Source: Rhodospirillales bacterium (GTDB taxonomy: Bacteria; Pseudomonadota; Alphaproteobacteria; ATCC43930; CGMCC-115725). Taken from it: a stretch of 64,000 nt of DNA. Under the pieces are notes generated by a model. It did no database searches, was not told the origin of the DNA, and worked only from the letters and a program-made list of their open reading frames with translations. Where the stretch lies: contig JAQGID010000069.1 in NCBI GenBank assembly GCA_028291405.1, forward strand, positions 1-64,000, given 5' to 3'. This document shows, in pieces, positions 3,869-47,124 of the stretch. A program made the position numbers and the translations under genes. Position 1 is the first letter of the stretch, and the number at the start of each line of letters is the position of its first letter.

Positions 3869-3870
3869 TC

Positions 3871-6236: not shown

Positions 6237-6245
6237 CTGTGTCGC

Positions 6246-9492: not shown

Positions 9493-9496
9493 CCCG

Positions 9497-10465: not shown

Positions 10466-10491
10466 CGTAAGCTACTCCCTGTGATTGCGTT

Positions 10492-11367: not shown

Positions 11368-11597
11368 GACGTCTCCTCCGACTGTCGCGATATCTCGCGT
11401 TGCCGCGATATTGCACGTCGGTGGGTACGACGCAAAGGCTGAAATGGCGGAGGATGGAGGGGACCCGCGCCTTCGTGAAGCGGGCGGGCATTGCTGCGAC
11501 CATCGAAATCGTCCACACTTATGAGTAGTAAACAAGTCCGGCCACGGCAGATGATCCGGCGCCCGGCCAACGGGCGGCGCCTGGGGAGGAGACCCTC

Positions 11598-13775: not shown

Positions 13776-13791
13776 GTCGGAGGCGCTTCCG

Positions 13792-14103: not shown

Positions 14104-14155
14104 GATTGCAAGCCTCCAGTGGTAATTCTCGAACGCTGACGGAGCGCCGCGCGGC

Positions 14156-14884: not shown

Positions 14885-14888
14885 GGCG

Positions 14889-15982: not shown

Positions 15983-16025
15983 GAGACGAGCTCCTTGACG
16001 GTCCGATACGCGCTTGCTTGCAAAC

Positions 16026-20316: not shown

Positions 20317-22722
<2,406 letters not shown>

Positions 22723-22781
22723 GTAACGCCGAGTATCGCCCGCCCTTGTCCGATCCACGCCTACCAAAGAGGATGGCAGCG

Positions 22782-24122: not shown

Positions 24123-24161
24123 TCTTACAAATACTCCGCCCCGCCCGGGGGACGTCGAGGA

Positions 24162-24869
24162 TCAGCGCCGCAGTCCCAACCCCTTGAGGAACAGCGCCGT
24201 CGCTGTCGTCGTCGCCGTGGCCAGGGTCGCGTCGTCGACGCGACGCTTGCCGAGCACTGCGGTGATTTGCGTCGCGAAATCGGCGTAGGTCTGGGTCGTC
24301 GCCCAGAGCATGAAGAGGAGATGCGCGGGATCGACCGTGTCCATCCTGCCCTCTTCCATCCAGGCCTCGAGGATCACGCTCTTCGCCTCGACGTGGCGGC
24401 GCAGTCGCTGGCGCAGGAAGGGACGGACATGCGTCGCACCGCCGATCACCTCGATGGCCCAGAGGCGGGATCGGTCGGGGAAGTCGCGGGAGTATTCGAT
24501 CTTGCGGGTGATGTAGCGCTCCAGCGCGGTTGCGGGATCGGCGTCGGGCCGGATCTCGTCAAGGGCGTCGAGCCAGACCGTCAGCACGTTCTCCAGCACG
24601 CGTGTGTAAAGATCGCGCTTGGTCGGGAAGTAATAGTGGAGATTGGCCTTCGGAAGTAGCGCGCGTTCGGCGATCTCGCCGGTGGTGGCGCCGCTGAACC
24701 CTTTCTCGGCGAAGACCGCATCGGCCGCCTTGATGATCCGCGCGACGTTGCGCTGGCGGATGATGCCGCCGTCGTCGCTCGACGAGGCTCTGCTCCCTTG
24801 GGTGGATTCCGCCGCCTTCGTCTTGCTCATCCCGTCTCGCCGTGCTGTGGCCGAAGCCGTCCCCCGCAT
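24162..24869 (-). CDS. rutR: RutR-like TetR-family transcriptional regulator
   Basis: The 235-residue protein has an N-terminal TetR helix-turn-helix (RIIKAADAVFAEKGFSGATTGEIAERALLPKANLHYYFPTKRDLY, about residues 43-90). Its C-terminal domain is of the RutR/YcdC type (KIEYSRDFPDRSRLWAIEVI...FMLWATTQTYADFATQI). E. coli RutR senses uracil or thymine and binds TTGACCAnnTGGTCAA. Palindromes of that form lie in the two promoter regions flanking this part of the locus, so it is probably the local repressor, released by pyrimidines. GAGG is six bases before the ATG at 24869; a second ATG at 24830 is possible. Confidence 0.88.
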   Translation of the reverse strand: MRGTASATARRDGMSKTKAAESTQGSRASSSDDGGIIRQRNVARIIKAADAVFAEKGFSGATTGEIAERALLPKANLHYYFPTKRDLYTRVLENVLTVWLDALDEIRPDADPATALERYITRKIEYSRDFPDRSRLWAIEVIGGATHVRPFLRQRLRRHVEAKSVILEAWMEEGRMDTVDPAHLLFMLWATTQTYADFATQITAVLGKRRVDDATLATATTTATALFLKGLGLRR

Positions 24870-24962
24870 CTCGGGCCTCGATCATTGAACCGTCGAGGCT
24901 CCCGGTCAAATAAAATGCAATCGCCCATTTCTTGGCCATTTCTGCCGATTTTCGGCACGATA

Positions 24963-24992
24963 TTGAACGATCGGTCAAGTTCTGCCTACACT
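24963..24992 (+). promoter_or_regulatory. preT promoter overlapped by a RutR-like operator
   Basis: The palindrome TTGAACGATCGGTCAA (24963-24978) matches the RutR consensus at 11 of 14 specified positions. Its first six bases, TTGAAC, also form a -35 element with TACACT 18 bases downstream. Binding of the regulator here would block transcription of preT, preA, the carbamoylase and the ABC genes. The regulator gene itself reads away on the other side. Confidence 0.65.
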
Positions 24993-25031
24993 TGGAATCA
25001 GCTGAAAATTCCCACCGACAGCGAGGCATCG

Positions 25032-26393
25032 ATGGCAGGATCGCAAGTCACCGCTCATCCCGACATTGCCGCCGCGCGGCTGTCGCCCGAGGTCTATCGG
25101 GCGAATTTCGCCGACGTCCATCCGCCGCTCGAAGCCGATCAGGCAGTGGTCGAGGCAAACCGTTGCTATTTCTGCTACGACGCGCCCTGCGTCGAGGCCT
25201 GTCCGACCGGTATCGACATCCCGGGCTTCATCCGCAAGATCGCGACCGGCAACGTCGACGGCGCCGGCCTGCGCATCCTCGAGGAAAACATCTTCGGCGG
25301 CTCCTGCGCCCGCGTCTGCCCGACAGAGATCCTCTGCGAAGCGGCCTGCGTCCGCACCGAGCAGCAGGGCAAGCCCATCGCGATCGGTGCGCTGCAGCGC
25401 TATGCCACCGATCCGACGCTGGCGGCGGCGGTCCATCCTTTCACGCGAGCCCTCTCGACCGGTCGCCGCGTCGCGGTCGTCGGCGGCGGCCCCGCCGGCC
25501 TCGCCTGCGCCCATCGGCTGGCGATGCTCGGCCATGACGTCACCGTCTTCGAAGCTCGCGAGCGTCTCGGCGGGCTCAACGAATACGGCATCGCCGAGTA
25601 CAAGGTGGCGGACCATTTCGCCCGTGCCGAGGTCGATTTCGTCCTGGCGGTCGGCGGCATCGCGGTGCGCACCGGCGTAGCCCTCGGCCGCGATCTCTCG
25701 CTTGCCGATCTCCGCGGCGACTATGATGCCGTGTTCCTCGGCATGGGGCTTGCAGGGGTCAAGGCGCTGGAATGCGAGGGCGAGGAATTGCAGGGCGTCT
25801 TCAATGCCGTCGACTACATCGAGAGGCTGCGCCAGGCGGCGGATTTCGCGACGCTGCCGATCGGCCGGCGCATCGTCGTAATCGGCGGCGGCAACACGGC
25901 GATCGACATCGCGGTGCAGGCGAAGCGGCTCGGCGCCGAGGACGTGACGCTGGTCTATCGCCGGACGGCGGAGGCGATGAGCGCGACCGGCCACGAGCAG
26001 GAGTTCGCCCAGACGAATGGCGTCAGGATCAAGCATTCGGCGCAGCCGGTTCGCCTGACCGGCCGCGACGGCGGCGTCGCGGAGGCCGTGTTCGAATACA
26101 CTGCGACCCAGGGCGGTCGCCTCGTCGGCACCGGCGAGATTTTCGCGCTGCCGGCCGACATGGTGTTCAAGGCGATCGGCCAGGTCTTCGTAGCCGATCC
26201 GCTCGCCGAGGGCGGAAGCTCGCTGCTCGCGCTGGCGAATGGCAGGATCCGCGTCGACGCCGACGGCAAGACCTCGCTCGACAAGGTCTGGGCAGGCGGC
26301 GATTGTATCGCCGGCGGTCAGGATCTGACGGTGCAGGCGGTCGAGGACGGCAAGCGTGCCGCGCTCGCCATCCACCGCAGCCTCGCCGGGTGA
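25032..26393 (+). CDS. preT: NAD-dependent dihydropyrimidine dehydrogenase, flavin subunit PreT
   Basis: The 453-residue protein begins with an iron-sulfur domain (C-Y-F-C...APCVEACPTGIDIPGFI; CARVCPTEILCEAAC), followed by two Rossmann motifs (VAVVGGGPAGLACAHRL at about 155 and IVVIGGGNTAIDIAVQA at about 280). This is the arrangement of PreT and of the N-terminal part of mammalian dihydropyrimidine dehydrogenase. It takes electrons from NAD(P)H through FAD and 4Fe-4S clusters to PreA, which reduces uracil or thymine. The ATG at 25032 follows GCGAGGC. The preA gene starts 11 bases downstream. Confidence 0.93.
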   Translation: MAGSQVTAHPDIAAARLSPEVYRANFADVHPPLEADQAVVEANRCYFCYDAPCVEACPTGIDIPGFIRKIATGNVDGAGLRILEENIFGGSCARVCPTEILCEAACVRTEQQGKPIAIGALQRYATDPTLAAAVHPFTRALSTGRRVAVVGGGPAGLACAHRLAMLGHDVTVFEARERLGGLNEYGIAEYKVADHFARAEVDFVLAVGGIAVRTGVALGRDLSLADLRGDYDAVFLGMGLAGVKALECEGEELQGVFNAVDYIERLRQAADFATLPIGRRIVVIGGGNTAIDIAVQAKRLGAEDVTLVYRRTAEAMSATGHEQEFAQTNGVRIKHSAQPVRLTGRDGGVAEAVFEYTATQGGRLVGTGEIFALPADMVFKAIGQVFVADPLAEGGSSLLALANGRIRVDADGKTSLDKVWAGGDCIAGGQDLTVQAVEDGKRAALAIHRSLAG

Positions 26394-26404
26394 GGGGAGA
26401 CGCC

Positions 26405-27700: not shown

Positions 27701-27711
27701 GCGAGGGCAGC

Positions 27712-28959
27712 ATGGCACACCCGGCCAACATCCAAGTCAACTGCGACCGCCTGTGGGACTCCCTGATGGAGATGGCGAAGATCGGCGCGACGGCCAAGGG
27801 CGGCTCGAAGCGCTTGGCGCTCTCCGACCTCGACAAGGAGGGCCGCGATCTCTTCGTCTCGTGGTGCAAGGCGGCGGGTTGTACCGTCACGGTCGACCGC
27901 ATGGGCAATATCTTCGCGCGCCGCCCCGGCCGTCTTGCCGATCTCCCGCCGGTCGTCACCGGCAGCCACCTCGATACCCAGCCGACCGGCGGCAAGTTCG
28001 ATGGGGTCTTCGGCGTCCTCGCCGGGCTCGAGGTGATCCGCACGCTCAACGATTCCGGCTACGAAACCGACGCGCCGCTCGAGGTCGCGGTGTGGACCAA
28101 TGAAGAGGGCTCGCGCTTTGCGCCGGCGATGGTCGCATCGGGCGTCTTCGCCGGCGTCTTCACGGAGGAATACGGCCACAGCCGCGCCGACCTCGACGGC
28201 AAGACGATCGGCGCCGAGCTCGAGCGCATCGGCTATCTCGGCGACCAGCCGACCGGCGGCCGTCCCTTCCGCGCCTTCTTCGAGGCGCATATCGAGCAGG
28301 GCCCGATCCTCGAGGCGACCAGCAAGACGATCGGCGTCGTCCAGGGCATCCAGGGCATGCGCTGGTTCGAGGTGACGCTGACGGGTGCCGAGAGCCACGC
28401 CGGCACGACTCCCATGGACCGCCGCAAGGACGCGATGCTGGGTTGCGCCCGCATCGTCGACCGCGTCAACAAGATCGCTCTCGACCATGCGCCGGGGGTC
28501 TCGACGGTCGGCTTGGTGCAGGTCAGCCCGAACTCGCGCAACACCATTCCCGGCAGCGTCTTCTTCAGCGTCGACCTGCGCCATCCCAGCGACGCGGTGC
28601 TGGCGACGATGACCGACGAGCTCAACGCTCTCGTCGCCGAGATCTGCGCCGGCCTCGGCCTCACCGGCGAGTGCAAAGAGATCTGGTCATCGCCGGCCGT
28701 CCATTACGACGAGGCTTGCATAGCCGCGGTGCGCCAGGCGGCTTCCGAGCTCGGCTATCCGCACCGCGACATCGTCTCGGGCGCCGGCCACGACGCGGGC
28801 TACATCAACCGCGTCGCGCCGACCGCGATGGTCTTCGTGCCTTGTGCCGATGGCATCAGCCATAACGAGATCGAGAGCGCGACGCGCGAGGACCTCGCCG
28901 CCGGCTGCAACGTGCTGCTGCGGGCGATGCTCGCGCAGGCGGCGGCCGAGACGCGATGA
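27712..28959 (+). CDS. Zn-dependent N-carbamoyl-beta-amino acid amidohydrolase (M20 family)
   Basis: The 415-residue protein belongs to the allantoate deiminase/N-carbamoyl amino acid hydrolase group of M20 enzymes. Metal-ligand motifs are TGSHLDTQPTGGKFDG, NEEGSRF, EAHIEQGPILE and the C-terminal CADGISHNE; GAESHAGTTPM is the dimer-domain signature. In this operon its job should be beta-ureidopropionase, cleaving N-carbamoyl-beta-alanine to beta-alanine, CO2 and ammonia. An L-carbamoylase or allantoate role cannot be excluded from sequence. Its stop overlaps the ATPase start (ATGA). Confidence 0.9.
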   Translation: MAHPANIQVNCDRLWDSLMEMAKIGATAKGGSKRLALSDLDKEGRDLFVSWCKAAGCTVTVDRMGNIFARRPGRLADLPPVVTGSHLDTQPTGGKFDGVFGVLAGLEVIRTLNDSGYETDAPLEVAVWTNEEGSRFAPAMVASGVFAGVFTEEYGHSRADLDGKTIGAELERIGYLGDQPTGGRPFRAFFEAHIEQGPILEATSKTIGVVQGIQGMRWFEVTLTGAESHAGTTPMDRRKDAMLGCARIVDRVNKIALDHAPGVSTVGLVQVSPNSRNTIPGSVFFSVDLRHPSDAVLATMTDELNALVAEICAGLGLTGECKEIWSSPAVHYDEACIAAVRQAASELGYPHRDIVSGAGHDAGYINRVAPTAMVFVPCADGISHNEIESATREDLAAGCNVLLRAMLAQAAAETR

Positions 28960-29786
28960 CGGTGCTCGAGGCGACGAGTTCCGTCGCGTCGGCACGCGAC
29001 CGTCCGGAACCGGCGGTCGAGATCTCGCATCTCAATCTGGTGTTCGGCGAGGGCAAGGCGGCGGTCCGCGCCCTGGCGGACGTCAACCTGACGATCGGCC
29101 GCGGCGAGTTCGTCTCGTTCATCGGCCCGTCCGGCTGCGGCAAGACGACTCTCATGCGCGTCGTCGCCGATCTCGAAAGCGCCGGCAGCGGCAGCGTCAA
29201 GGTCAACGGCGTCAGCCCGGCCGAGGCGCGTCTCGCCCGCGCCTACGGCTACGTCTTCCAGGCGCCGGCGCTTTACCCGTGGCGCAGCGTCCAACGCAAC
29301 ATTACCCTGCCGCTGGAGATCATGGGCGTCGACAGGGCGGAGCAGGCGCGCCGCGTCGCCCGAGTTCTCGACCTCGTCAATCTGACGGGCTTCGCGCGCA
29401 AGTTCCCCTGGCAGCTTTCCGGCGGCATGCAGCAGCGCGTCTCGATCGCCCGCGCCCTGTCCTTCGACCCGGCGCTGCTGCTGATGGACGAGCCCTTCGG
29501 CGCGCTCGATGAGATCATTCGCGATCATCTGAACGAGCAACTCCTGCGGCTCTGGGAGCGCACCCGCAAGACCGTGCTCTTCGTCACCCATTCGATCCCG
29601 GAGGCGGTGTTCCTCTCGACCAAGATCGTCGTGATGAGCCCGCGCCCGGGCCGTATTGCCGACGTCATCGACAGCGATCTGCCGCGCGAGCGCACCGTCG
29701 AAATTCGCGAGTCCCCCGAATTCATCAAGATCGCCCACCGCGTCCGCGCCGGCCTGCGTGCCGGGCATGGCGACGATGATGCTTGA
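28956..29786 (+). CDS. ABC transporter ATP-binding protein (pyrimidine importer)
   Basis: The 276-residue ATPase has Walker A (GPSGCGKTTL), the Q-loop (VFQAPALYPW), the signature LSGGMQQRVSIARAL, Walker B (LLLMDEPFGALDE) and the switch histidine (FVTHSIPEAVFLS). This is the SsuB/TauB/ThiZ subclass. It overlaps the carbamoylase gene by four bases and the next permease by up to 20, so it is made with the pyrimidine enzymes. It energises the two permeases that follow. Confidence 0.92.
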   Translation: MTVLEATSSVASARDRPEPAVEISHLNLVFGEGKAAVRALADVNLTIGRGEFVSFIGPSGCGKTTLMRVVADLESAGSGSVKVNGVSPAEARLARAYGYVFQAPALYPWRSVQRNITLPLEIMGVDRAEQARRVARVLDLVNLTGFARKFPWQLSGGMQQRVSIARALSFDPALLLMDEPFGALDEIIRDHLNEQLLRLWERTRKTVLFVTHSIPEAVFLSTKIVVMSPRPGRIADVIDSDLPRERTVEIRESPEFIKIAHRVRAGLRAGHGDDDA

Positions 29787-30699
29787 GATCGCGCGGCCAG
29801 GGACTCGCCACAATCCTTTCGCTCGCCTCGCCGCCGGGCGCATCTTGCCTGTGCTGGTCGTCAGCCTGGCACTCCTTGCGATCTGGTATGTCGCAACAAT
29901 CGGTCTGAACGCCCGCGGCGCCCTCGATCAGTACGAGCGCGACGAGCGAAACGACTGGACGATCGCCGAGTTGATCGCCGACACGATGCGCCAGGAGCGG
30001 CCGCTGCTGCCGGCGCCGCACCAGATTCTGGTCGAGCTGGACAAATCCGTGTTGCAGATCGCGCCGACCTCGCGCCGCAGCCTCGTCTATCACGGCTGGG
30101 TGACGCTCTCGGCGGCTTTCGTCGGCTTCGCGATGGGGACCTTGCTCGGTATCGTCCTTGCCATCGCCATCGTCCACGTGCCGGCGCTCGAGCACGCGCT
30201 GATGCCATGGATCATCGCCTCGCAGACAATCCCGATCCTGGCGATCGCGCCGATGATCATCGTCGTGCTCGGCTCGGTCGGTCTCGTCGGGTTGCTGCCG
30301 AAGGCGATCATCTCGGCGTACCTCTGCTTCTTCCCCGTGGCGATCGGCATGGTCAAGGGGCTGACCTCGCCCGACCCGCTGCAGCTCGACCTCATCCGGA
30401 CGTACAGCGCGACCGAGGGGCAGCTGTTCCGCAAGCTGCGCTTCCCCGCCGCGATTGCCTTCCTCTTCGCCAGTCTGAAAGTTGCGATTGCTTTGGCAAT
30501 CGTCGGGGCCATCGTCGGCGAGCTGCCGACCGGGGCGCAGGCCGGGCTTGGCGCACGCATGCTGTCGGGCTCGTATTACGGCCAGACGGTGCAGATCTGG
30601 GCGGCGCTGATCGTCGCGGCGATCGTCTCCGGACTCTCGATCGCCGCCGTCGGCCTCGCCGAGCGCGTCACCATGCGTGCGATGGGCAGTGCGCCGTGA
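29767..30699 (+). CDS. ABC transporter permease 1 (pyrimidine importer)
   Basis: The 310-residue inner-membrane protein has an N-terminal helix (ILPVLVVSLALLAIWYVATIGL), a hydrophilic stretch of about 50 residues (RDERNDWTIAELIADTMRQERP), then five or so helices with the EAA loop (YSATEGQLFRKLRFPAAIAFLFASLKVAIA). It is longer than typical SsuC-type permeases because of that periplasmic stretch. The start may be the ATG at 29767, 29776 or 29779, all inside the ATPase gene, and no ribosome site decides between them. It ends in a GTGA overlap with the second permease. Confidence 0.87.
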   Translation: MATMMLEIARPGTRHNPFARLAAGRILPVLVVSLALLAIWYVATIGLNARGALDQYERDERNDWTIAELIADTMRQERPLLPAPHQILVELDKSVLQIAPTSRRSLVYHGWVTLSAAFVGFAMGTLLGIVLAIAIVHVPALEHALMPWIIASQTIPILAIAPMIIVVLGSVGLVGLLPKAIISAYLCFFPVAIGMVKGLTSPDPLQLDLIRTYSATEGQLFRKLRFPAAIAFLFASLKVAIALAIVGAIVGELPTGAQAGLGARMLSGSYYGQTVQIWAALIVAAIVSGLSIAAVGLAERVTMRAMGSAP

Positions 30700-31799
30700 A
30701 GCGCAACGCGATCATTACTGTCGTCGCAGGCCTGATCGCGTTGTTCCTCCCGCTCGGCGCCGCCGGCAGCTTCCTCGCGCATCCGCTCGCCCTCGCGCTG
30801 TGGCTCGTCGCGATCGCCGCTGCTGTTGCGCCGCAGCTTCGCGCCCTCGGCCCAGCTGCTGTCGCGATCCTGACGACCATCAGCACCGCTCTCGGCGCCG
30901 CTGCGCTCTACCGGCTGATCCTGGCCGGCGCGATCGGCAGCGACGCGCTCGGCATCTGGGTCGGCACGATCCTGCTCTGCCTCATGCTATGGCGTACACT
31001 GCAGCACATCGCCGCCCTATGCGCCGCGACGCGCGGCACCGCCATCCGCCTCGCAGCGCCCATTCTCGTCGGGCTTTGGGCGTTGATCCTCTGGCAGATC
31101 ATCACCGTCGGCTTCGCGATCCCCGGCGTCCTGCTGCCGCCGCCGAGCGAGATCGGCGTCGCGATCGCCGCATCGCTGCCGGTGCTCGGCGTCGACTTCA
31201 TGCAGACCTTCGTGCGCTCGATGATCCCGGGCTACGTCATCGGCTGCGGCGCCGGGCTCGTCGTCGGCATCCTCGTCGACCGCGTGCCGTTCCTGCAGCG
31301 CGGCTTGCTGCCGATCGGCAATCTCGCCAGCGCCCTGCCGATCATCGGGATCGCCCCGATCATGGTGATGTGGTTCGGTTTCGACTGGCAGTCGAAGGCG
31401 GCAGTCGTCGCGGTGATGACCTTCTTCCCGATGCTCGTCAACGTCATTGCCGGCCTCGATGCGCTCGGCCGCGTCGAGCACGACCTCATGCGGACCTATG
31501 CCGCGAGCTACGGCCAGACGCTGCTCCGGGCGCGGTTGCCGGCGGCGCTGCCCTTCATCTTCAACGCGCTCAAGATCAATTCCACCCTGGCGCTGATCGG
31601 GGCCATCGTCGCCGAGTTCTTCGGGACGCCGATCTACGGCATGGGGTTCCGCATCTCGACGGCGGCGGGACGCATGGACATCGCCTTGGTCTGGGCGACG
31701 GTCGCGGTGGCGGCGCTGAGCGGGTCTGCCGCTTATGGTGCGATCGCCGTCATCGAGCGGAGCCTGACCTTCTGGCACCCCTCGCTGCGTAAAGCCTGA
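30696..31799 (+). CDS. ABC transporter permease 2 with N-terminal membrane extension (pyrimidine importer)
   Basis: The 367-residue protein starts at a GTG (30696) overlapping the previous stop. Residues 1-115 form an extra block with about four hydrophobic segments. The usual permease domain follows, with LPPPSEIGVAIAASLP and the EAA loop YAASYGQTLLRARLPAALPFIFNALKINS. The core is related to SsuC/ThiX-type permeases. It pairs with permease 1. The extra N-terminal membrane block is about 100 residues beyond the usual family size. Confidence 0.87.
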   Translation: MKRNAIITVVAGLIALFLPLGAAGSFLAHPLALALWLVAIAAAVAPQLRALGPAAVAILTTISTALGAAALYRLILAGAIGSDALGIWVGTILLCLMLWRTLQHIAALCAATRGTAIRLAAPILVGLWALILWQIITVGFAIPGVLLPPPSEIGVAIAASLPVLGVDFMQTFVRSMIPGYVIGCGAGLVVGILVDRVPFLQRGLLPIGNLASALPIIGIAPIMVMWFGFDWQSKAAVVAVMTFFPMLVNVIAGLDALGRVEHDLMRTYAASYGQTLLRARLPAALPFIFNALKINSTLALIGAIVAEFFGTPIYGMGFRISTAAGRMDIALVWATVAVAALSGSAAYGAIAVIERSLTFWHPSLRKA

Positions 31800-31833
31800 G
31801 GAGCCACCCGAGTTTACAAACAAGGAGGATAAA

Positions 31834-32859
31834 ATGCGGAGACTGGCGGGATACGGGGCGGCCGTCGCGATGTTCGCGGCGACGGGGATGGCGCGGGCAG
31901 CGGAGCCGGTGACGGTGCAGCTGAAATGGGTGGCCCAGGCGCAGTTCGCCGGCTACTACGTCGCCAAGGACAAGGGCTACTACAAGGACGCCGGCCTCGA
32001 CGTCACGATCAAGGCGGGCGGACCGGATGTGGCGCCGGTACAGATCCTCGCTGCCGGCGGCGCCGACGTCGTCGTCGACTGGCTGCCCGACGCGCTGGCG
32101 GCGCGCGAAAAGGGCGTCAAGCTCGTCAATGTCTCGCAGACCTTCCAGCGCTCCGGCCTCGAGCTCACCTGCACCAAGGCGAGCGGCATCAAGACGCCGA
32201 AGGACTTCCCCGGCCATACGCTGGGCGTCTGGTTCTCCGGCAACGAGTATCCGTTCCTTGCCTGGATGGCCAAGCTCGGCATCCCGACCGACGGCAGCCC
32301 CAAGGGCGTCAAGGTGCTGAAGCAGGGCTTCAACGTCGATCCGCTGCTGCAGAAGCAGGCGCAGTGCATCTCGACGATGACGTATAACGAGTATTGGCAG
32401 GTGATCGACGGCGGTTTCAAGCCGGCCGATCTCACCGTCTTCAAATACTCCGACGAGGGCGTCGCGACTCTCGAGGACGGGCTCTACGCCAATGGCGACA
32501 AGCTCGGCGACGGCCGCTTCGTCGACAAGCTCGCCCGTTTCGTCGCTGCATCGGACCGCGGCTGGGACTGGGCCTCGAAGCACACCGACGAGGCGGCAAT
32601 GATCGTGCTCGACAACGACACGACCGGCGCACAGACCGAAAAGCATCAGAAGCGGATGATGAAGGAGATCGTCAAGCTCTTCGCCGATTCGAAGAACCCG
32701 CTCGGCTATCTCAATCCGGACGACTTCGATGCGACGGTCACGGTGCTGCTGTCGTCGCAGTCCGATCCGGTGATCACCAAGAAGCCCGAAGGCGCCTGGA
32801 CCGGCGCCGTCTTCCAGGCCTCGAAGAAGTACTGGGATCCGGCGAAGGCGACGAACTGA
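31834..32859 (+). CDS. ABC transporter substrate-binding protein (THI5/NMT1-like, pyrimidine importer)
   Basis: The 341-residue secreted protein has a signal peptide ending near ARAAEP and opens with VTVQLKWVAQAQFAGYYVAKDKGYYKDAGLDVTI. That is the hallmark of THI5/ThiY/RibY-like binding proteins for pyrimidine-type or related ring ligands. AAGGAGG lies before the ATG. As last gene of the operon with preTA and the carbamoylase, it most likely binds uracil, thymine, a nucleoside or a dihydropyrimidine. A hairpin follows the gene. Confidence 0.88.
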   Translation: MRRLAGYGAAVAMFAATGMARAAEPVTVQLKWVAQAQFAGYYVAKDKGYYKDAGLDVTIKAGGPDVAPVQILAAGGADVVVDWLPDALAAREKGVKLVNVSQTFQRSGLELTCTKASGIKTPKDFPGHTLGVWFSGNEYPFLAWMAKLGIPTDGSPKGVKVLKQGFNVDPLLQKQAQCISTMTYNEYWQVIDGGFKPADLTVFKYSDEGVATLEDGLYANGDKLGDGRFVDKLARFVAASDRGWDWASKHTDEAAMIVLDNDTTGAQTEKHQKRMMKEIVKLFADSKNPLGYLNPDDFDATVTVLLSSQSDPVITKKPEGAWTGAVFQASKKYWDPAKATN

Positions 32860-39317: not shown

Positions 39318-39660
39318 CGATCCCGCAATGCCGCCGGCGCTCCTGCCGGAGGGCCGGGCTGCGGGTGGGCATGCGCTGACTAGAAGTCGACCAACTGGTC
39401 AGCTTTTTAGGCAGTCCGGCGAGTGGGCGCGACGCCATCATCGCGATGCCGCGTGAGCGCTGGGGCGTGGTCTGCGGAACCGAAGCCGGTCCGGATCGGT
39501 CGCGCCGATCGTGGCCGGCGGCCTGAAATTGCAGGCTGGATGCAGGTGCATCCGAAGCCGGGCAGGGGCCGGCGCGAGGCTGTCGCGGTTTTGCGGAAAT
39601 CGCAGCCGGCATCCGGCGCATCGCCTCCGCGAGAGGTGATAATGAGGCGGAATGCAGGTG

Positions 39661-39928: not shown

Positions 39929-40005
39929 GTCATTGCGAGCGCAGCGAAGCAATCCAGTGGCGGTAAGGGTCTGGATTGCTTCGTCGCTGCGCTCCTCGCA
40001 ATGAC
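39929..40005. repeat. Long dispersed palindromic element (REP-like)
   Basis: The left arm (39929-39957) starts GTCATTGCGAG and ends AAGCAATCCAG. The right arm (39971-40005) is its reverse complement apart from two 3-base insertions. The loop is 13 bases. The full right-arm sequence is a repeat I know to be scattered through many alphaproteobacterial genomes. The two insertions fall either side of a shared CGCAGCG core, so the arms differ by whole triplets. Confidence 0.8.
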
Positions 40006-40064
40006 GGAACTATATGTAAAATGGCTACTTACCTGACGCAGCATTCTCCCAAAACCCTTACTCT

Positions 40065-40138: not shown

Positions 40139-40193
40139 AACCATTTTGAATGGTTATGTCGGGATCGCTCGCCGCGCGCGGCGAGCGATCCCG
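40139..40193. repeat. Two adjacent palindromes upstream of the 2OG-oxygenase gene
   Basis: AACCATT (40139-40145) pairs with AATGGTT (40149-40155). Immediately after, 40160-40193 is a perfect 34-base palindrome with no loop (CGGGATCGCTCGCCGCG and its exact complement). Both lie about 95-150 bases before the oxygenase start codon. They could be an operator pair, a terminator for upstream transcription, or another dispersed repeat. Confidence 0.7.
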
Positions 40194-40286: not shown

Positions 40287-41300
40287 GTGACCCTGCTCAA
40301 CGTTCCCGTGATCGACATCCGGCCCTATCGCGAGGGTTCGGCGGCAGAGCAGATGGCGGTCGCAGGCCTGGTCGGCCAGGCCTGTCGCGACATCGGCTTC
40401 CTGGTAATTACCGGCCACGGCGTTCCTTCGGCGCTGATCGACCGGACGGATCGCGCCGCCTCGACGTTCTTCGACTTGCCGCTGGCCAAGAAAATGGCGC
40501 TGAAACGGCCGAAGGAGGACCAGGTCCGCGGCTATAGCGCGGTCGGCGACGAGGGGCTCTCCTACAGTCTCGACGAGGCGACGCCGGGCGATCTCAAGGA
40601 ATCGTTCTCGATCGGCCCGATCGATCCGCCGGACGAGCCCTATTTCACCGGCGCGGCAGCCGGGCCGCATTTCGCGCCCAATTTATGGGCCGACGAGATC
40701 CCCGACTTCCGCGCATCGTGGTCGGAATATTTCACCAGCATGTCCGAGCTTTCGGCGCAGCTGATGCGCATCTTCGCGCTGTCGCTCGACCTGCCCGAGG
40801 ATTTCTTCGACGACAAGATCGACCGCCACATCAGCATGTTCCGCACGCTGCGCTATCCCGAGCAGCGCGAGGAGCCGCGGCCCGGCCAGCTGCGCGCCGG
40901 GGCGCATTCCGATTACGGCAGCCTGACCATCGTCAGGATCGAGGACAAGCCGGGCGGGCTGCAGGTCATGAACAAGGCCGGCGCATGGGTCGACGTTCCC
41001 GCCATCCCGGGCTCGTTCGTCGTCAATATCGGCGATCTGATGATGCAGTGGACCAACGATCAGTGGATCTCGACGCTGCACCGCGTCGCTAACCCGCCGC
41101 GCGACAAATCCGACAGCCGCCGCCAATCGCTCGTCTTCTTCCATCAGCCGAATTACGACGCGATCGTCGAGTGCCTGCCGAGCTGCGCCGTTGCCGGCGC
41201 CGCGCCGAAATACGCGCCGATCTCGTCCGGCGATCATCTGCGCAACAAGTTCCTCAAGCAGACGACCTTCGGCGACAGCGCCGTAGAGGCGATCGCATGA
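40287..41300 (+). CDS. Isopenicillin-N-synthase-like 2-oxoglutarate/Fe(II) dioxygenase
   Basis: The 337-residue protein has the DIOX_N domain (VPVIDIRPY...GFLVITGHGVP) and the 2OG-Fe(II) core with iron ligands H207-x-D209 (AHSDYGSLTIV) and H265 (TLHRVANP). The 2OG-binding R-x-S is R279-Q-S281. The family includes thymine-7-hydroxylase, gibberellin and flavonoid oxygenases. The start is a GTG at 40287 with AGAAGGA upstream. It overlaps a VOC gene by four bases and heads a set with a BMP-type nucleoside/base importer and a cysteine hydrolase. That context makes a nucleobase or nucleoside a reasonable substrate, but this is not proven. Confidence 0.88.
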   Translation: MTLLNVPVIDIRPYREGSAAEQMAVAGLVGQACRDIGFLVITGHGVPSALIDRTDRAASTFFDLPLAKKMALKRPKEDQVRGYSAVGDEGLSYSLDEATPGDLKESFSIGPIDPPDEPYFTGAAAGPHFAPNLWADEIPDFRASWSEYFTSMSELSAQLMRIFALSLDLPEDFFDDKIDRHISMFRTLRYPEQREEPRPGQLRAGAHSDYGSLTIVRIEDKPGGLQVMNKAGAWVDVPAIPGSFVVNIGDLMMQWTNDQWISTLHRVANPPRDKSDSRRQSLVFFHQPNYDAIVECLPSCAVAGAAPKYAPISSGDHLRNKFLKQTTFGDSAVEAIA

Positions 41301-41698
41301 GCAGCGCCCCGACGCTCTCCTACGTCAACGTCTTCGCCCGCGACATCGAGGCGCTCAGCGGCTTCTACCAGGACGTCTTCGGCTTCCCCGAGATCGAGGC
41401 GATCCGCTCGCCGATCTTCCGCGGTCTCAGCACCGGCCGCAGCAGCATCGGCTTCAACGCGCTCGACGCCTACGATCTGCTGAAGCTGTCGGAGTTCGCC
41501 AACCCGACGGGCGTGAAGTTCTTGCTCAATTTCGACGTCGACAGCCCGGAGGCGGTCGACCGGCTCGTTCCCGTCGCGGTGGCCAAGGGGGCGAGGCTCA
41601 TCAAGGCGCCCTACAAGACCTATTACAACTGGTACCAGGCGGTTCTCTTCGATCCCGAAGACAACGTCTTCCGGATCAACCACGTGCTCGACGAATGA
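41297..41698 (+). CDS. VOC (glyoxalase/bleomycin-resistance fold) protein
   Basis: The 133-residue protein has paired beta-alpha-beta-beta-beta units: LSYVNVFARDIEALSGFYQDVFGFPEI at the start and AVLFDPEDNVFRINHVLDE at the end. The usual vicinal-oxygen-chelate metal positions are only partly clear. It could be an extradiol-type oxygenase, isomerase, lyase or binding protein. The ATG overlaps the oxygenase stop (ATGA), so it probably acts on the same compound or its product. Confidence 0.83.
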   Translation: MSSAPTLSYVNVFARDIEALSGFYQDVFGFPEIEAIRSPIFRGLSTGRSSIGFNALDAYDLLKLSEFANPTGVKFLLNFDVDSPEAVDRLVPVAVAKGARLIKAPYKTYYNWYQAVLFDPEDNVFRINHVLDE

Positions 41699-41737
41699 CG
41701 GCCGACCCGTTCAACGCAACGAACAAGGAATAAGACC

Positions 41738-42823
41738 ATGACGCTGCGCCCGAAGATCCTGCTGACGTCGCTTGCCATGGCGCTGGGATGCGCCGCCTCG
41801 GCCTATGCCGCCGGCTTCACGCTGCCGGCCCCGGCCAAGATCGCGTTCCTTTATTTCGCCGAGAAGAACGACGGCGGCTGGACGCAGGCCTTCGACGAGG
41901 CGCGGCCCAAGATCGAGAAATCGCTGGGCCAGCAGATGCCCTATGTCGAGAAGGTACCCGAGGTCGCCGGCCAGATCCGTCCGGCGGCCGAGCGCTTCAT
42001 CCAGCGCGGCTACAACGTCATCATCGGCACCGCCTTCGGCTATTCCGACACGTTCAAGGAGCTCTCGGAGAAATACCCGAAGGTCGCGTTCCTCAACGCC
42101 TCGGGCACGACCAACGGCCCGAACCTGGAGTCCTTCTATGGCCGCACCTACGAGAGCCAGTATCTCTGCGGCATGGTCGCTGGCGCGGTCTCGAAGACCG
42201 GCAAGCTCGGCTTCGTCGCGGCGCATCCGATCGGTCCCGTCAACTGGACGATCAACGCCTATGAGCTCGGCGCCCAGAAAATGAACCCGAACGCCACGGT
42301 GACCGTCATCTTCACCGGCGCATGGAACGACCCGGTCAAGGAGCGCGCCGCCGCCCAGGCACTTGCCGATCAGGGCATCGACGTCATCGGCCAGCACGTC
42401 GACACCCCGACGCCGCAGATCGTCGCGCAGGAGCGCGGCATCTACGGCACTGGTCATCACCGCGATCTGCGCGAGTTCGCGCCGAAGGCGACGCTGTGCT
42501 CTTCGGCCTGGACCTGGGACGCGTTCCTAGCGCCGGAGCTCAAGAAGATCGCTGCCGGGAACTGGCAGCCGAGCCCCTACGGCGCCTTCCCCGGCATCAA
42601 GGACGGCGGCACCGACATCGCGTGCTGCAATGCCGTGGTGGCGAAGGACGTGGTCGCCAAAGTCATGGCGGAGCGCAAGGCGATCGTCGGGGGCAAGCAG
42701 GTCTATGCCGGGCCGCTCAAGGACACCGCCGGCACGGTCCGCGTCGCCGAGGGTGCGGTGCTCGACGATGCCGGGCTCTGGAAGATGGATTGGTTCGTCC
42801 CCGGGGTCATCACCCAGAAATGA
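41738..42823 (+). CDS. BMP-family ABC substrate-binding protein (nucleoside/nucleobase type)
   Basis: The 361-residue secreted protein (signal ending near AAGFT) belongs to the basic membrane protein/PnrA-like family: FLYFAEKNDGGWTQAFDEARPKIE, ERFIQRGYNVIIGTAFGYSDT, PNLESFYGRTYESQYLCGMVAGAVSKTGKLGFVAAHPIG. Characterised members bind purine nucleosides or free purines such as xanthine. It lies 39 bases after the VOC gene and is followed by its ATPase and two permeases. Confidence 0.92.
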   Translation: MTLRPKILLTSLAMALGCAASAYAAGFTLPAPAKIAFLYFAEKNDGGWTQAFDEARPKIEKSLGQQMPYVEKVPEVAGQIRPAAERFIQRGYNVIIGTAFGYSDTFKELSEKYPKVAFLNASGTTNGPNLESFYGRTYESQYLCGMVAGAVSKTGKLGFVAAHPIGPVNWTINAYELGAQKMNPNATVTVIFTGAWNDPVKERAAAQALADQGIDVIGQHVDTPTPQIVAQERGIYGTGHHRDLREFAPKATLCSSAWTWDAFLAPELKKIAAGNWQPSPYGAFPGIKDGGTDIACCNAVVAKDVVAKVMAERKAIVGGKQVYAGPLKDTAGTVRVAEGAVLDDAGLWKMDWFVPGVITQK

Positions 42824-42836
42824 CGACCGGCCGATC

Positions 42837-44339
42837 ATGACGATCGCGCTGACGCTGACCGGAATCCGCAAGTCGTTCGACGGGTTTCTCGCCCTCGACG
42901 ACGCAGCATTCTCGGTCGGCGGCGGCGAGGTTCACGCGTTGCTGGGCGAGAACGGCGCCGGCAAATCCTCGCTGATGAACGTTGCCGCCGGGCTCTATGC
43001 GCCGGATAGCGGCGAGATCGCGATCGACGGGCGTCCCGTCGTCCTTGCCGGCCCGGCCGACGCGCGGCGCCACGGCGTCGGCATGGTGCATCAGCATTTC
43101 AAGCTGGTGAAGCCGTTCACCGTCGCCGAGAACATCCTGCTCGCCAATCCACGGCCCGGCTATCGCAGAGGGATGGCGGCGACCCGCGAGGCGATCGCCC
43201 GCCAGGCCGAGACGCTCGGCTTCGCGATCGAGCCGGATCGCCGCGTCGCCGATCTTTCGATCGCCGAGCAGCAGCAGGTCGAGATCGTCAAGGTCCTGGT
43301 CGGTGGCGTCCGCATCCTGATCCTCGACGAGCCGACCGCGGTGTTGACCGACGCCGAGGCCGATCGCCTGCTCGAAACGGTGCGTCGCCTGGCCGAGACC
43401 GGCGTCGCGGTCGTGCTGGTCACCCACAAGCTCTACGAGGTCAAGCGCCATGCCGATGCGGTCACGGTCATGCGGGGCGGGCGGACGGTCGCGACCGCCG
43501 ATCCGCGCACCGCAAGCACCGCCGAGCTGACCGAGCTCACGGTCGGCCAGACGACGCCGCTGCCGGCGCGCGCGAGCTTCGACCACGGCGGTACGCGGCT
43601 GAACGTCGGCGCCCTGACCTGTGCGCGCGCCGATGGGCAGGTGACGCTCGCCGATCTCAGCTTCTTCGTCCGCTCCGGCGAGATCTACGGCGTCGCCGGC
43701 GTCAGCGGCAACGGCCAGGCGGAGCTCGCCGAGGCGCTGGTCGGCATTCGGCCGCCGCTTGCCGGCGAGATCTGGGTCGAGGGCGCCGGCGATCTCGCCA
43801 AGGCCGCACCGACGGCGCGCCGGGATGCCGCCGTCGCCGCCATCCCGGCCGACCGCTTTTCCCATGCGCTGGCGGGCAGCCTGTCGATCGCCGAGAATTT
43901 CGCGGTCGGCGAGGTGCATTGCGGCCGCTATGGCGGCTGGCCGCTGATCGACCGAAACGCGATGCGCCGCGCGACGGCGGCGGCGGTCGCCGCTTTCGAC
44001 GTGCAGGGCGTCCGCAGCCTACGACAGAAGGCGGCGCTGCTCTCGGGCGGCAATGCGCAGAAGCTGGTGATCGCGCGTGAGTTCAGCCGCGAGCCGGCGG
44101 TCGTCGTCGCCCATAGCCCGAGCCGCGGCCTCGACGCGCGCGCCTGCGGTGCGGTGCATCAGCGGCTGCTCGCGGCGCGCGACGCCGGTGCGGCGGTCGT
44201 CGTGATCAGCGAGGACCTCGACGAGATCCTGACCCTCTCGGACCGGATCGCGGTGATGAGCCGCGGTCGCATCGTCGCCGAGTTCGACCGGCCGGCGGAC
44301 CGCCAGGCGATCGGCCGCGCCATGGTGGATCATGGCTGA
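42837..44339 (+). CDS. ABC importer ATPase with two nucleotide-binding domains
   Basis: The 500-residue protein has two fused ATPase domains of the sugar/nucleoside (RbsA/NupA) class. The first has a proper Walker A (GENGAGKSSLMN), MVHQHFKLV Q-loop and LILDEPTAVLT Walker B, but a degenerate signature (LSIAEQQQVEIVK). The second has a degenerate Walker A (GVSGNGQAEL) and a clear signature (LSGGNAQKLVIAREF). Such asymmetry is normal in the family. It overlaps the next permease gene by eight bases. Confidence 0.92.
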   Translation: MTIALTLTGIRKSFDGFLALDDAAFSVGGGEVHALLGENGAGKSSLMNVAAGLYAPDSGEIAIDGRPVVLAGPADARRHGVGMVHQHFKLVKPFTVAENILLANPRPGYRRGMAATREAIARQAETLGFAIEPDRRVADLSIAEQQQVEIVKVLVGGVRILILDEPTAVLTDAEADRLLETVRRLAETGVAVVLVTHKLYEVKRHADAVTVMRGGRTVATADPRTASTAELTELTVGQTTPLPARASFDHGGTRLNVGALTCARADGQVTLADLSFFVRSGEIYGVAGVSGNGQAELAEALVGIRPPLAGEIWVEGAGDLAKAAPTARRDAAVAAIPADRFSHALAGSLSIAENFAVGEVHCGRYGGWPLIDRNAMRRATAAAVAAFDVQGVRSLRQKAALLSGGNAQKLVIAREFSREPAVVVAHSPSRGLDARACGAVHQRLLAARDAGAAVVVISEDLDEILTLSDRIAVMSRGRIVAEFDRPADRQAIGRAMVDHG

Positions 44340-45444
44340 TCTGAAGGCGATGTCGGCGGGCGCCATGGTGGCGCCGCCGCTCAAGGCGCGACGTCTCGGC
44401 CGGCTCACGCTCGAGCTGCGTCAGAACCTGCCGGCGTGGAAACAGGCGGCGTTCCTGACGATCTGCCTCGTATTCGGGATCGCGGTATCGGTCGCGATCC
44501 TCGCCGCGGCGGGGATCGCGCCGGCGACGCTGTTCGACGAGATGATCGTCGAGACGCTGGGCAACGCCGACAGTCTGCGCGCCGTGCTGGTGCAGGCGAC
44601 GCCGCTCATCCTGGTCGGGCTCGGCGCTGGCCTCGCCTTTCGGGTCGGCTTTTGGAATCTCGGCATCGAGGGCCAGATGATCTGGGGCGGCATCGGCGCC
44701 ACCGCTGTCGTGATCTATGGCATTGGGCCGGAATCGCTGCGGCTCGTCTGCATGGGAATCGCGGCGGGGCTGGGGGGGCTGACGTGGGTGCTGCTGGCCG
44801 CCTGGCTCAAGCTCAGCTTCCGCGTCAACGAGATCATCGCGACGCTGCTGCTGAACTACGTCGCCGCCTATTTTCTTTTCCACCTGCTCTACGGCGCCTG
44901 GCAGGATCCGACCACCGCCTTTCCCCAATCGGTGCAGTACCGCAGCTTCGAGCGGCTGCCGGAGATCGGCTTCGGCGTCAGCTCCGGCCTCGCGATCGCC
45001 CTCGCCGCGGTGGCGGTCGCCTTCTGGCTGGTCCAACTCAGCCGCGCCGGATTCTACATGCGCTTCGTCAGCGCCAATCCCGGCATGGCGCGCGTCGTCG
45101 GCGTGCCGGTCGCCGCCGTCAGCATCGGCGCCATCGCCGCCTCGGGCGCGCTCGCGGGACTCGCGGGCTTCGTCAACGTCGCGAGCCAGGAGGGCAGGCT
45201 GACGCAATCGTTCTTCGACGGCTATGTCTTCGCCGGCGTGCTCGTCGCCTTCCTGTCGCGCAACGATCCGATCATCGCGGCGGTCGTCGGCTTCCTGCTC
45301 GCCGTGCTCTTCGTGACCGGCCAGACGCTGCAGGTCTTCTACCAGATCCCCTTCACGATGGTGCAGCTGATCCAGGCGATCATCGTCATCGCCGTCGCGT
45401 CCTCGGAGTTCCTGATCCGCCACCGCATGCGCTGGACCCGCTGA
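44332..45444 (+). CDS. ABC transporter permease 1 (NupB/YufP type)
   Basis: The 370-residue membrane protein has about nine hydrophobic segments and the BPD_transp_2 features PLILVGLGAGLAFRVGFWNLGIEGQM and RVNEIIATLLLNYVA. These are typical of nucleoside/BMP-linked permeases. It forms a heterodimer with the next gene product. It starts inside the ATPase gene and ends two bases before the next ATG. Confidence 0.92.
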   Translation: MADLKAMSAGAMVAPPLKARRLGRLTLELRQNLPAWKQAAFLTICLVFGIAVSVAILAAAGIAPATLFDEMIVETLGNADSLRAVLVQATPLILVGLGAGLAFRVGFWNLGIEGQMIWGGIGATAVVIYGIGPESLRLVCMGIAAGLGGLTWVLLAAWLKLSFRVNEIIATLLLNYVAAYFLFHLLYGAWQDPTTAFPQSVQYRSFERLPEIGFGVSSGLAIALAAVAVAFWLVQLSRAGFYMRFVSANPGMARVVGVPVAAVSIGAIAASGALAGLAGFVNVASQEGRLTQSFFDGYVFAGVLVAFLSRNDPIIAAVVGFLLAVLFVTGQTLQVFYQIPFTMVQLIQAIIVIAVASSEFLIRHRMRWTR

Positions 45445-45446
45445 CG

Positions 45447-46382
45447 ATGACCGACTTCCTGATCAACTGGATCGCCGGCATCCCGGTTACCGCCGCGCCT
45501 TACGCGCTGGCGGCGCTCGGCCTAATCATCAGCGAGCGGTCCGGCATCCTCAATCTCTCCGCCGAGGGGCTGATGCTGGTCGGCGCGATGACCGGCGTCG
45601 CGAGCTGCATCGTCCTCGGCGGCCACCCGCTGATCGCCCTCGTAATCGCGATGGTGGCGAGCAGCGTCGTCTCGCTGCTTTTTGCGATGCTGACCGTCGT
45701 CCTGCGCATCAACCAGGTGATCGCCGGCCTTGCGATCGTGTTCTTCTGCCAGGGGCTCACCGGGCTGATCGGCAATCTCGCCGGCTGGCAGAATCACCCG
45801 ATCGCCGGGCTCGACAAATGGACGATCGGGCCGTTATCGGAAATCCCGGGGATCGGGAAGATCCTGTTCATCCAGGATCCCGTCGTCTATCTCGCGATCC
45901 CAATCTTCTACCTCGTCAATCGCGTGCTGAGGTTCTCGATGGTCGGGCTCAACCTGCGCGCCGTCGGCGAGAATCCGGCGGCGGCGGATGCGGCGGGGGT
46001 CAGCGTCGCGCTCTATCGGATCGCCGCGATCGTCGCGGGCTCGGCGCTGGTCGGGCTGGCCGGCGCCTATATCTCGGTCGTCGGGGTCAAGCTGTGGTTC
46101 ACCGGCATGGTCGGCGGCCGCGGCTGGATCGCCGTCGCGCTGGTGATCTTCGCGCGCTGGGCGCCGTGGCCGGCGCTCGGCGGCGCGCTGCTGTTCGGCT
46201 GCATCGAGGCGGTGATCCCGCGGATCGCCGCCGCCGGCATCCGCGTGCCGCAATATCTCATGCTGATGCTGCCCTACCTCGCGACGATCGCCGTCATGGT
46301 CTGGGCCGGGGCGACGCAGCGCGGCGGCGCCGGCGAGCCCGGTGCGCTGGGACAGCCACACGTCCGCGAGGAGCGGCGCTGA
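45447..46382 (+). CDS. ABC transporter permease 2 (NupC/YufQ type)
   Basis: The 311-residue membrane protein has eight or so hydrophobic segments and the motifs ISERSGILNLSAEGLMLVGAM and VGLNLRAVGENPAAADAAGVSV, characteristic of the second permease of BMP-type importers. It follows permease 1 by two bases and precedes the cysteine hydrolase by 28. All four transporter genes and the flanking enzymes read as one operon. Confidence 0.92.
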   Translation: MTDFLINWIAGIPVTAAPYALAALGLIISERSGILNLSAEGLMLVGAMTGVASCIVLGGHPLIALVIAMVASSVVSLLFAMLTVVLRINQVIAGLAIVFFCQGLTGLIGNLAGWQNHPIAGLDKWTIGPLSEIPGIGKILFIQDPVVYLAIPIFYLVNRVLRFSMVGLNLRAVGENPAAADAAGVSVALYRIAAIVAGSALVGLAGAYISVVGVKLWFTGMVGGRGWIAVALVIFARWAPWPALGGALLFGCIEAVIPRIAAAGIRVPQYLMLMLPYLATIAVMVWAGATQRGGAGEPGALGQPHVREERR

Positions 46383-46410
46383 TCCGAGGCCGAGAGCAGG
46401 GAGGGTGACG

Positions 46411-47124
46411 ATGCAGATCCACGTCTACGGCAAAGAGCGGACCGTTACCGACGGGTTCGACGACTATCTCGATCCGGCGCGCACCGCGATCGTTTCGATC
46501 GACATGCACCGCGGGCATCTCGACCCGTCGCCGGACTGCCCGTGCCCGGCGCCGCGGGCGCGCGAGATCGTGGCGCCGATCGACGCGTTCCACGAACGGG
46601 CGCGGGCGCTCGGTGTCCCGGTGATCCACGTCCGGACGGTGCTGCGGCGTGGCGGCGTCGACGACGTCAAGGGGATCCCATCCGCGTGGCGCCGCACCTT
46701 CCCGCTCTATGTCGGGGCGATCCCGAACAGCGACGCGCATGCCATCGAGGGTTCGCACTGGACCGAGCTGATGACGCATGTCGGGCCCGAGGATCTGCTC
46801 GTCGAGACGAAGAAGCGGCTGTCGGTCTTCTACCCGACCGATCTCGATTTTCTCTTACGCAACCTGAAGGTAGAGACCGTCGTGCTGAACGGCGGCTTCA
46901 CCGATTGCTGCGTGCTGAACGCCGCCTTCGACGCGAGCAACCGCAACTACCATGTCGTCGTCGCGCGCGACCTCGTTCGCGGCACCGACGATGCCCTCGA
47001 GGGCGCCGCGCTGGCGATGGTCTCGCTTCATCTCGGCTTGGTCGTCGATTCGGCGGCGCTGCTCGCGGAATGGGGGACGCGCGTCAGCGGTCGAGGAAGC
47101 CCCAGCGCATCAGTCCCCGCTTGA
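46411..47124 (+). CDS. Isochorismatase-like cysteine hydrolase
   Basis: The 237-residue protein has the catalytic triad of the cysteine hydrolase superfamily: D31 (VSIDMHRGHLD), a lysine at 134/135 (VETKKRLS) and C167 (GGFTDCCVLNAA). Relatives hydrolyse ureidoacrylate (RutB), biuret, N-carbamoylsarcosine or nicotinamide. In this operon, after a nucleoside/base importer, a carbamoyl or amide product of ring breakdown is a reasonable substrate. GGAGGG precedes the ATG. Its 3' end overlaps the PhyH gene by 41 bases on the other strand. Confidence 0.88.
   Translation: MQIHVYGKERTVTDGFDDYLDPARTAIVSIDMHRGHLDPSPDCPCPAPRAREIVAPIDAFHERARALGVPVIHVRTVLRRGGVDDVKGIPSAWRRTFPLYVGAIPNSDAHAIEGSHWTELMTHVGPEDLLVETKKRLSVFYPTDLDFLLRNLKVETVVLNGGFTDCCVLNAAFDASNRNYHVVVARDLVRGTDDALEGAALAMVSLHLGLVVDSAALLAEWGTRVSGRGSPSASVPA

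Follow-up and report, generated by a model that had tools for sequence, protein, structure and literature searches.

An operon of oxygenase, VOC protein and importer

The subject of this report is a run of seven genes in a 64,000-nucleotide stretch of DNA from a Rhodospirillales bacterium (GCA_028291405.1, contig JAQGID010000069.1, forward strand), a stretch that we call the window. A preliminary description, made from the sequence of the window, read these genes as one operon of an oxygenase, a VOC protein, a BMP-type importer and a hydrolase. The operon is real: a check of the interval 40287-47124 confirms all seven open reading frames, with their coordinates and strand, closely spaced, and the Pfam domains of all seven proteins score above the curated cut-offs. 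We argue below that it is quite probably a module for the uptake and oxidation of a pyrimidine, feeding the breakdown of uracil or thymine. Its genes are the following:

40287..41300, + strand: 2-oxoglutarate (2OG)/Fe(II) oxygenase, thymine-7-hydroxylase-like; GTG start; PF14226 (DIOX_N) and PF03171 (2OG-FeII_Oxy)
41297..41698, + strand: VOC protein of glyoxalase fold, in which the usual metal site seems to be absent; PF00903 (Glyoxalase)
41738..42823, + strand: BMP/PnrA-type periplasmic binding protein, AtzT-like; PF02608 (Bmp)
42837..44339, + strand: ABC ATPase with two ATP-binding domains; PF00005 (ABC_tran), two stretches
44332..45444, + strand: ABC permease 1; PF02653 (BPD_transp_2)
45447..46382, + strand: ABC permease 2; PF02653 (BPD_transp_2)
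46411..47124, + strand: isochorismatase-like cysteine hydrolase (accessory); PF00857 (Isochorismatase)

The oxygenase and VOC frames share four bases (ATGA overlap). Gaps of 39 and 13 bases separate the VOC gene from the BMP gene and the BMP gene from the ATPase gene; the ATPase gene overlaps that of permease 1 by 8 bases, the two permease genes are 2 bases apart, and the hydrolase follows after 28 bases, or after 22 if it starts at an alternative GTG at 46405. The binding protein belongs to the BMP family: its Bmp domain exceeds the Pfam cut-off, and it is accompanied by a cognate ABC ATPase and two permeases.

Relatives of the operon were collected by scanning named bacterial genomes with the VOC alignment. 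The best 80 of 93 loci were kept, so that the set is not a full census; it comprises 81 loci, namely 79 of the scan loci (L097 duplicates L015) together with L015 and L013, with neighbouring genes called from open frames and tblastn. We call a locus core if it holds the oxygenase, the VOC protein and the BMP protein together, which is the case for 59 of the 81 VOC-bearing loci. In 50 of these 59, the order oxygenase-VOC-BMP-ATPase-permease-permease is consecutive on one strand, a recurrence that places it beyond chance and that answers the call of the preliminary description for a survey of the neighbourhood across genomes. The nine other core loci are irregular: L034, L040, L065 and L067 are without permease, L073, L079 and L080 are split between two strands, L029 carries an insertion and misses the last permease, and L084, from a metagenome-assembled genome (MAG), is rearranged. 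The last of these holds, at 2435-17788, a single run of an NMT1 importer, an amidohydrolase, three 2OG oxygenases, the VOC protein, the BMP importer and two RutB-like hydrolases.

Other transporters also stand beside the VOC gene: an NCS1 transporter with RutB-C-D in Novosphingobium (L082), NCS2 transporters in Rhodococcus (L013) and Gordonia (L091), and NMT1-type importers in several MAGs. The Gordonia locus further holds an amidohydrolase, a luciferase-like monooxygenase and an M20 protein. In Paraburkholderia L060 (7273-12131), genes for a ferredoxin-type reductase and for two Rieske oxygenases come after the VOC gene, and a dihydropyrimidinase gene lies downstream; L023, also from Paraburkholderia, has relatives of these Rieske oxygenase and reductase genes in a cluster. 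No published description of the module was found in a literature search from which subscription journals were mostly out of reach.

The company of two uracil pathways

The preliminary description made no connection between the operon and the Rut and reductive pathways of uracil breakdown, the second of which is encoded in the window itself. Among the neighbours of the 59 core loci, at least two of rutA-F are found in 42 cases, RutR alone in three, the reductive set in one and neither in 13; RutA itself is present in 40. At L030, RutA, B, C, D, F and a malonic semialdehyde reductase (RutE) are over their cut-offs, RutR is above one of its two model cut-offs and below the other, and the permeases are followed by a YdfG-like reductase that scores below its own cut-off. 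According to PMC8113886, YdfG is able to act in the Rut pathway as a reductase of malonate semialdehyde. The adjacency spans many genera: 13 of 15 isolates in Variovorax, 4/5 in Pseudacidovorax, 5/6 in Pseudomonas, 3/3 in both Halopseudomonas and Marinobacter, 2/2 in each of Pseudorhodoferax, Xenophilus and Hylemonella, and others. The locus and the RutR-like boxes described below are thus common to the module and the Rut system (RutA-G, RutR) in most carriers. However, in E. coli, rutG follows rutF and the rut operon has no oxygenase, VOC protein or BMP importer, and the module also exists without Rut.

The association holds at the level of genomes. Among 150 genomes of the Variovorax family, eight have the VOC protein, the same eight have the BMP orthologue, and RutA occurs in those eight and one more (hypergeometric probability 1.7e-12, kinship being ignored); in seven of the eight, VOC and RutA lie on one contig, at most about 14 kb apart. 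Of 18 genomes checked for both RutA and PreA, nine have RutA over the cut-off, two of these having been chosen as known carriers, three have PreA only, and six have neither. In Novosphingobium L082, RutB-C-D come directly after oxygenase and VOC, with no RutA in the operon and two RutA elsewhere in the genome.

No RutA over the cut-off was found in the genome of the window. The genes of the reductive pathway lie at 21237-32859:

21237..22655, - strand: dihydropyrimidinase; TIGR02033 over cut-off
22746..24122, + strand: AptA-type omega-aminotransferase; NF052567 over cut-off
24162..24869, - strand: RutR-like TetR regulator; best model TIGR03613, 189.8 bits, below the cut-off of 368
25032..26393, + strand: dihydropyrimidine dehydrogenase subunit PreT (FAD/NAD type); matches glutamate-synthase-small-subunit-like models, named from its position beside PreA, here and in L025
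26405..27700, + strand: dihydropyrimidine dehydrogenase subunit PreA; NF006183 over cut-off
27712..28959, + strand: M20 carbamoylase, candidate beta-ureidopropionase; TIGR01879 over cut-off
28956..32859, + strand: second ABC importer; ATPase 28956-29786, two permeases with uncertain starts, binding protein 31834-32859

In Parvibaculum sedimenti (L025), a PreT-PreA-M20-ABC run that is 70-81% identical leads straight into oxygenase-VOC-BMP-ATPase-permeases-hydrolase; the second ABC importer has the same gene order there, with an ATPase 76% and a binding protein 74% identical to those of the window. The three genomes attributed to Tistrella lack RutA, and all have PreA on the same contig as VOC, 28-33 kb away. 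The reductive pathway (PreT/PreA, dihydropyrimidinase, beta-ureidopropionase) is present in the window, and its PreT-PreA-M20 part adjoins the module in Parvibaculum; the defining steps of that pathway include no oxygenase, VOC protein or BMP importer.

A further link comes from regulation. We scored as RutR-like boxes the sites that agree with at least 11 of the 14 positions of a RutR-type consensus; the rutR-rutA gap of E. coli contains one site, with 3 mismatches to this consensus. Of 57 core loci, 46 have such a box no more than 300 bases ahead of the oxygenase; of 1140 windows drawn at random from these loci, 36 contain one. Two core loci were left out since their oxygenase is too close to the end of the locus (L051 and L078, judging from coordinates). 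Loci with fewer than two adjacent rutA-F genes also have the box (L015, L025, L070, L075, L076, L081). A box between divergent RutR and oxygenase genes may serve RutR itself; in L031, L048, L025, L070, L075 and L081, the box is outside any such gap.

The window contains six sites of this kind, where 0.67 are expected, and none of 100 shuffles reached six. Two of them are:

22707..22722, + strand: RutR-box-like palindrome with 1 mismatch, between the dihydropyrimidinase and the aminotransferase
39387..39402, + strand: RutR-box-like palindrome with 2 mismatches, some 885 bases upstream of the start of the oxygenase gene

A RutR box directly at the operon was looked for in the window and not found there. 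Another palindrome, AACCATTTTGAATGGTT, occurs once in the window, at 40139-40155. Between the box at 39387 and the oxygenase, there are an inverted repeat at 39930-40010 that looks REP-like by eye and a perfect 34-base palindrome at 40160-40193; an insertion may be what separates the box from the operon. On the - strand, 37821-39317 encodes an FAD/NAD(P)-binding protein with a weak ArsO-type match; a RutR-like box lies some 70 bases upstream of the longest frame of this gene, and a 38% relative of this protein is found near oxygenase and VOC in L088.

The proteins of the module

The preliminary description had placed the oxygenase in the broad family of thymine-7-hydroxylase (T7H), and the resemblance is now closer: the top four structural matches to its AlphaFold model (pLDDT 88.3) are the T7H entries 5c3p, 5c3q, 5c3r and 5c3s, with Z scores of 38.3-39.4 and an rmsd of 1.6-2.2 Å across 298-303 residues, followed by TraH (Z 36.3) and the Caulobacter protein 3oox (Z 36.2). 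A profile search of the PDB ranks 9ovh (191 bits), by its title a reconstructed ancestral ethylene-forming enzyme, before T7H (155 bits) and 6jyv (129 bits). Judged by model and profile, T7H is the closest characterised natural enzyme. For a second oxygenase found downstream in Comamonadaceae and for a paralogue in the window's own genome, it is 6jyv that outscores T7H.

The Fe ligands and 2OG residues (H214, D216, H271, Y194, R286 and S288 in T7H) are invariant in the 57 core oxygenases and 6 others aligned, and the substrate residues R190, Y217 and F292 are conserved in all 57. The latter letters are also present in the alignment of 9ovh and are thus not specific to T7H; we rejected them as proof that the substrate is thymine. 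The same genome has a second oxygenase-VOC pair (L009, contig C244, 509-1890), with a VOC protein 48% identical to that of the window, then a LysR-like gene on the opposite strand; no importer was seen within the 3.4 kb examined around it.

The VOC protein is 70% identical to an orphan structure of 2007, 2rbb (Z 23.0); the matches that come next, unassigned proteins, mitomycin-binding proteins and glyoxalases, have Z scores of 14-17 and at most 22% identity. Nine residues are invariant in 47 aligned sequences, that of the window included: D16, F23, Y24, S38, T108, D119, E121, N123 and R126. When residues 5-130 of the model are aligned with residues 1-126 of glyoxalase I, Y9 and R126 fall at two of the four metal positions, those of the ligands H5 and E122. 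With Tyr9 and Arg126 at these two positions, the VOC protein may well be metal-free.

Among structures in the PDB, the best relatives of the BMP protein are AtzT (6pi5, 220.9 bits) and then the Brucella protein 3s99. In PMC6834077, AtzT is described with guanine sandwiched by Tyr45 and Trp194 and contacted by Ser97, Phe98, Glu165, Asn218 and Asn220, and 3s99 as modelled with adenine. All 58 core relatives of the BMP protein have W48, F100, W196, H220 and D222 in the pocket, with Trp48 and Trp196 as the sandwich. The positions of the AtzT guanine contacts S97, E165, N169, N218 and N220 hold Ala99 in 57, Val, Gln or Pro167 in 44, 9 and 3, Thr171 in 56, and His220 and Asp222 in 58 of the 58. Family and aromatic sandwich are those of AtzT (PMC6834077), but its guanine-contacting Glu, Asn and Ser are replaced. 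Because the sandwich is kept and the other contacts are not, this is probably a flat-ring pocket with a changed ligand.

The proposal that the importer carries a purine loses its footing here, together with the glutamate that touches guanine in AtzT; given these replacements and the pyrimidine gene context, we set aside a purine ligand drawn from BMP homology alone. Uracil permease-like (RutG/UraA-like) genes are found elsewhere in eight of the nine RutA genomes, as seven matches of 645-688 bits and one split match in G494, all below a model cut-off that no control genome, E. coli included, reaches. Their presence weakens the idea of the BMP importer as a simple substitute for RutG, and suggests that it carries a different pyrimidine, probably not uracil. 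An AMP nucleosidase adjoins the importer in Tistrella (L015, 14217-15788), and a Tepidamorphus MAG (L094, 2067-3800) has a 66% relative of it close to a pair of oxygenase and VOC genes.

The hydrolase is accessory. Its Asp-Lys-Cys triad (D33, K136, C169) is present in 31 of 31 sequences, and its nearest solved structure is the biuret hydrolase 6xjm. It shares family and triad with BiuH and RutB, but scores far below both cut-offs: 57.4 bits against 370 for the BiuH model NF050097, and 37.2 against 377.95 for the RutB model TIGR03614. It is present in 37 of the 59 core loci and missing from 22. Relatives at 60-67% identity on plasmids of Klebsiella, Pantoea and Rhizobium have a DMT transporter as neighbour; those of Klebsiella and Pantoea (L010 and L012, at 60%) also have a nitrilase-like gene beside them. 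In none of the three is an oxygenase, VOC or BMP gene annotated nearby. On these grounds we gave up the hydrolase as the necessary last step, or core, of the pathway; it perhaps acts on an alternative ureido product.

A candidate supplier of uracil or thymine

The Rut and reductive pathways have a common input, uracil or thymine, and a common late product, malonate semialdehyde, with nothing shared between. Since the module travels with either pathway, it most likely supplies uracil or thymine. In the scheme that we propose, the ABC importer would take in a flat, pyrimidine-like ligand held between its two tryptophans. The oxygenase would then oxidise a substituent of this ligand, most likely a methyl group, as in thymine or another methylated pyrimidine; the VOC protein would act on, or carry off, the oxidised product, with loss of a one-carbon group. 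The reductive pathway here, and Rut in the majority of the other carriers, would degrade the resulting uracil (or thymine), in many cases under the control of a RutR-type repressor that senses uracil.

Of the original interpretation, the nucleobase uptake-and-oxidation route, the likeness to T7H and the neighbourhood are retained, while the necessary hydrolase and the purine are not; nor is ring hydroxylation, which no evidence favours over the oxidation of a methyl substituent. The oxidation of methyl groups is known for both types of oxygenase found beside the VOC protein, 2OG and Rieske, and this, with T7H as the closest natural enzyme, favours methyl removal. We give rather less than an even chance to the version in which the module removes the methyl group of thymine or another methylated pyrimidine by oxidation. 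More tentative is a detailed sequence of steps: the oxygenase would hydroxylate the methyl group, perhaps only once, and the VOC protein, as a new metal-free enzyme, would remove the one-carbon unit to leave uracil for the Rut or reductive pathway, Rieske enzymes standing in for the 2OG enzyme in Paraburkholderia.

The nearest known chemistry is the fungal salvage of thymine by T7H, which oxidises thymine to 5-carboxyuracil, and iso-orotate decarboxylase. The oxygenase fold, the Fe and 2OG residues, the Tyr/Phe base sandwich and Arg190 are alike, and the module would likewise convert a 5-methyl pyrimidine to uracil. However, the module is bacterial, has two base contacts changed, has its own ABC importer and is coupled to catabolism, and the partner of its oxygenase is a VOC protein, whereas the fungal partner, iso-orotate decarboxylase, has a TIM-barrel fold.

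Several observations weigh against the proposed scheme. Thirteen core loci, as counted above, have the genes of neither pathway adjacent, and the six checked genomes with neither RutA nor PreA over cut-off are five MAGs and the isolate L023; the same holds for four more alphaproteobacterial genomes, whose VOC copies are distant (38-55% identity). In Paraburkholderia L023 and L060, close VOC copies (74-82%) have no adjacent 2OG oxygenase. In the window, the reductive genes stop 7.4 kb before the operon, the RutR-like protein is below its family cut-off, and the 350 bases before the oxygenase contain no good RutR box (best 8/14). Moreover, the reductive pathway already enables a bacterium to break down thymine, so that demethylation would be redundant in such a cell. 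Finally, the window oxygenase has V80 and S108 where T7H has its base contacts N87 and E122; the first position is V in 56 of the 57 core oxygenases, and the second is S in 55 of the 63 aligned. According to PMC4787775, N87 and E122 point to N1/O2 of the base, and their alanine mutants stay active on thymine, whereas their activity on 5-hydroxymethyl- and 5-formyluracil is greatly reduced. This behaviour, together with the loss of both residues, agrees with the more tentative scheme, in which one oxidation step would precede the action of a VOC lyase.

The replacements at N87 and E122 also make the N1 edge less polar, as would suit the main rival explanation, namely that pyrimidine nucleosides are imported and that the oxygenase hydroxylates C1' of the sugar, to yield uracil or thymine and a sugar lactone. 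Fungal nucleoside 1'-hydroxylases provide a model for this reaction, and BMP importers are often nucleoside importers. The product is still uracil or thymine, so that all the evidence from gene context fits and the general claim is common to both explanations; the uracil permease-like genes elsewhere, by which the cargo is probably not uracil, are also in its favour. However, free bases are the ligands of the closest two binding proteins of solved structure (guanine for AtzT, adenine for 3s99), the base sandwich is retained, and the oxygenase is nearest to a free-base enzyme: we consider this nucleoside route unlikely.

Slightly less likely still is a second ring-opening route, carried out by the oxygenase and the VOC protein, the hydrolase then cleaving a ureido compound. 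The RutB-C-D genes of Novosphingobium L082, in an operon without RutA, and the kinship of the hydrolase with biuret and ureidoacrylate hydrolases would suit such a route, but that genome has its two RutA elsewhere, RutA accompanies the module in most core loci, more than a third of these miss the hydrolase, and the module pairs with the reductive pathway, which has no ring-opening intermediate in common with Rut. A purine or s-triazine-like substrate, with a rut link that reflects only shared regulation by nitrogen source, is improbable. In its favour are the ligands of the nearest binding proteins (guanine, adenine and 2-hydroxyatrazine), the AMP nucleosidase gene after the importer in Tistrella, and the likeness of the hydrolase to biuret hydrolase. 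Against it stand the replacement of the AtzT guanine contacts in nearly all BMP relatives, the near-exact co-occurrence with RutA in the Variovorax family, and the RutR-like boxes.

Uptake and oxidation of a pyrimidine, as proposed for the module, would be an undescribed step ahead of the two uracil pathways known in bacteria; carriers in which it is conserved are Comamonadaceae, Pseudomonas and its relatives, Marinobacter, Parvibaculum and Tistrella. The orphan structure 2rbb gains a candidate function, and the ligand of this BMP subgroup becomes directly testable. If the product is uracil, the module would give bacteria an equivalent of the chemistry by which fungi salvage thymine and which TET enzymes apply to 5-methylcytosine, and the role of its VOC protein would be an unexpected one.

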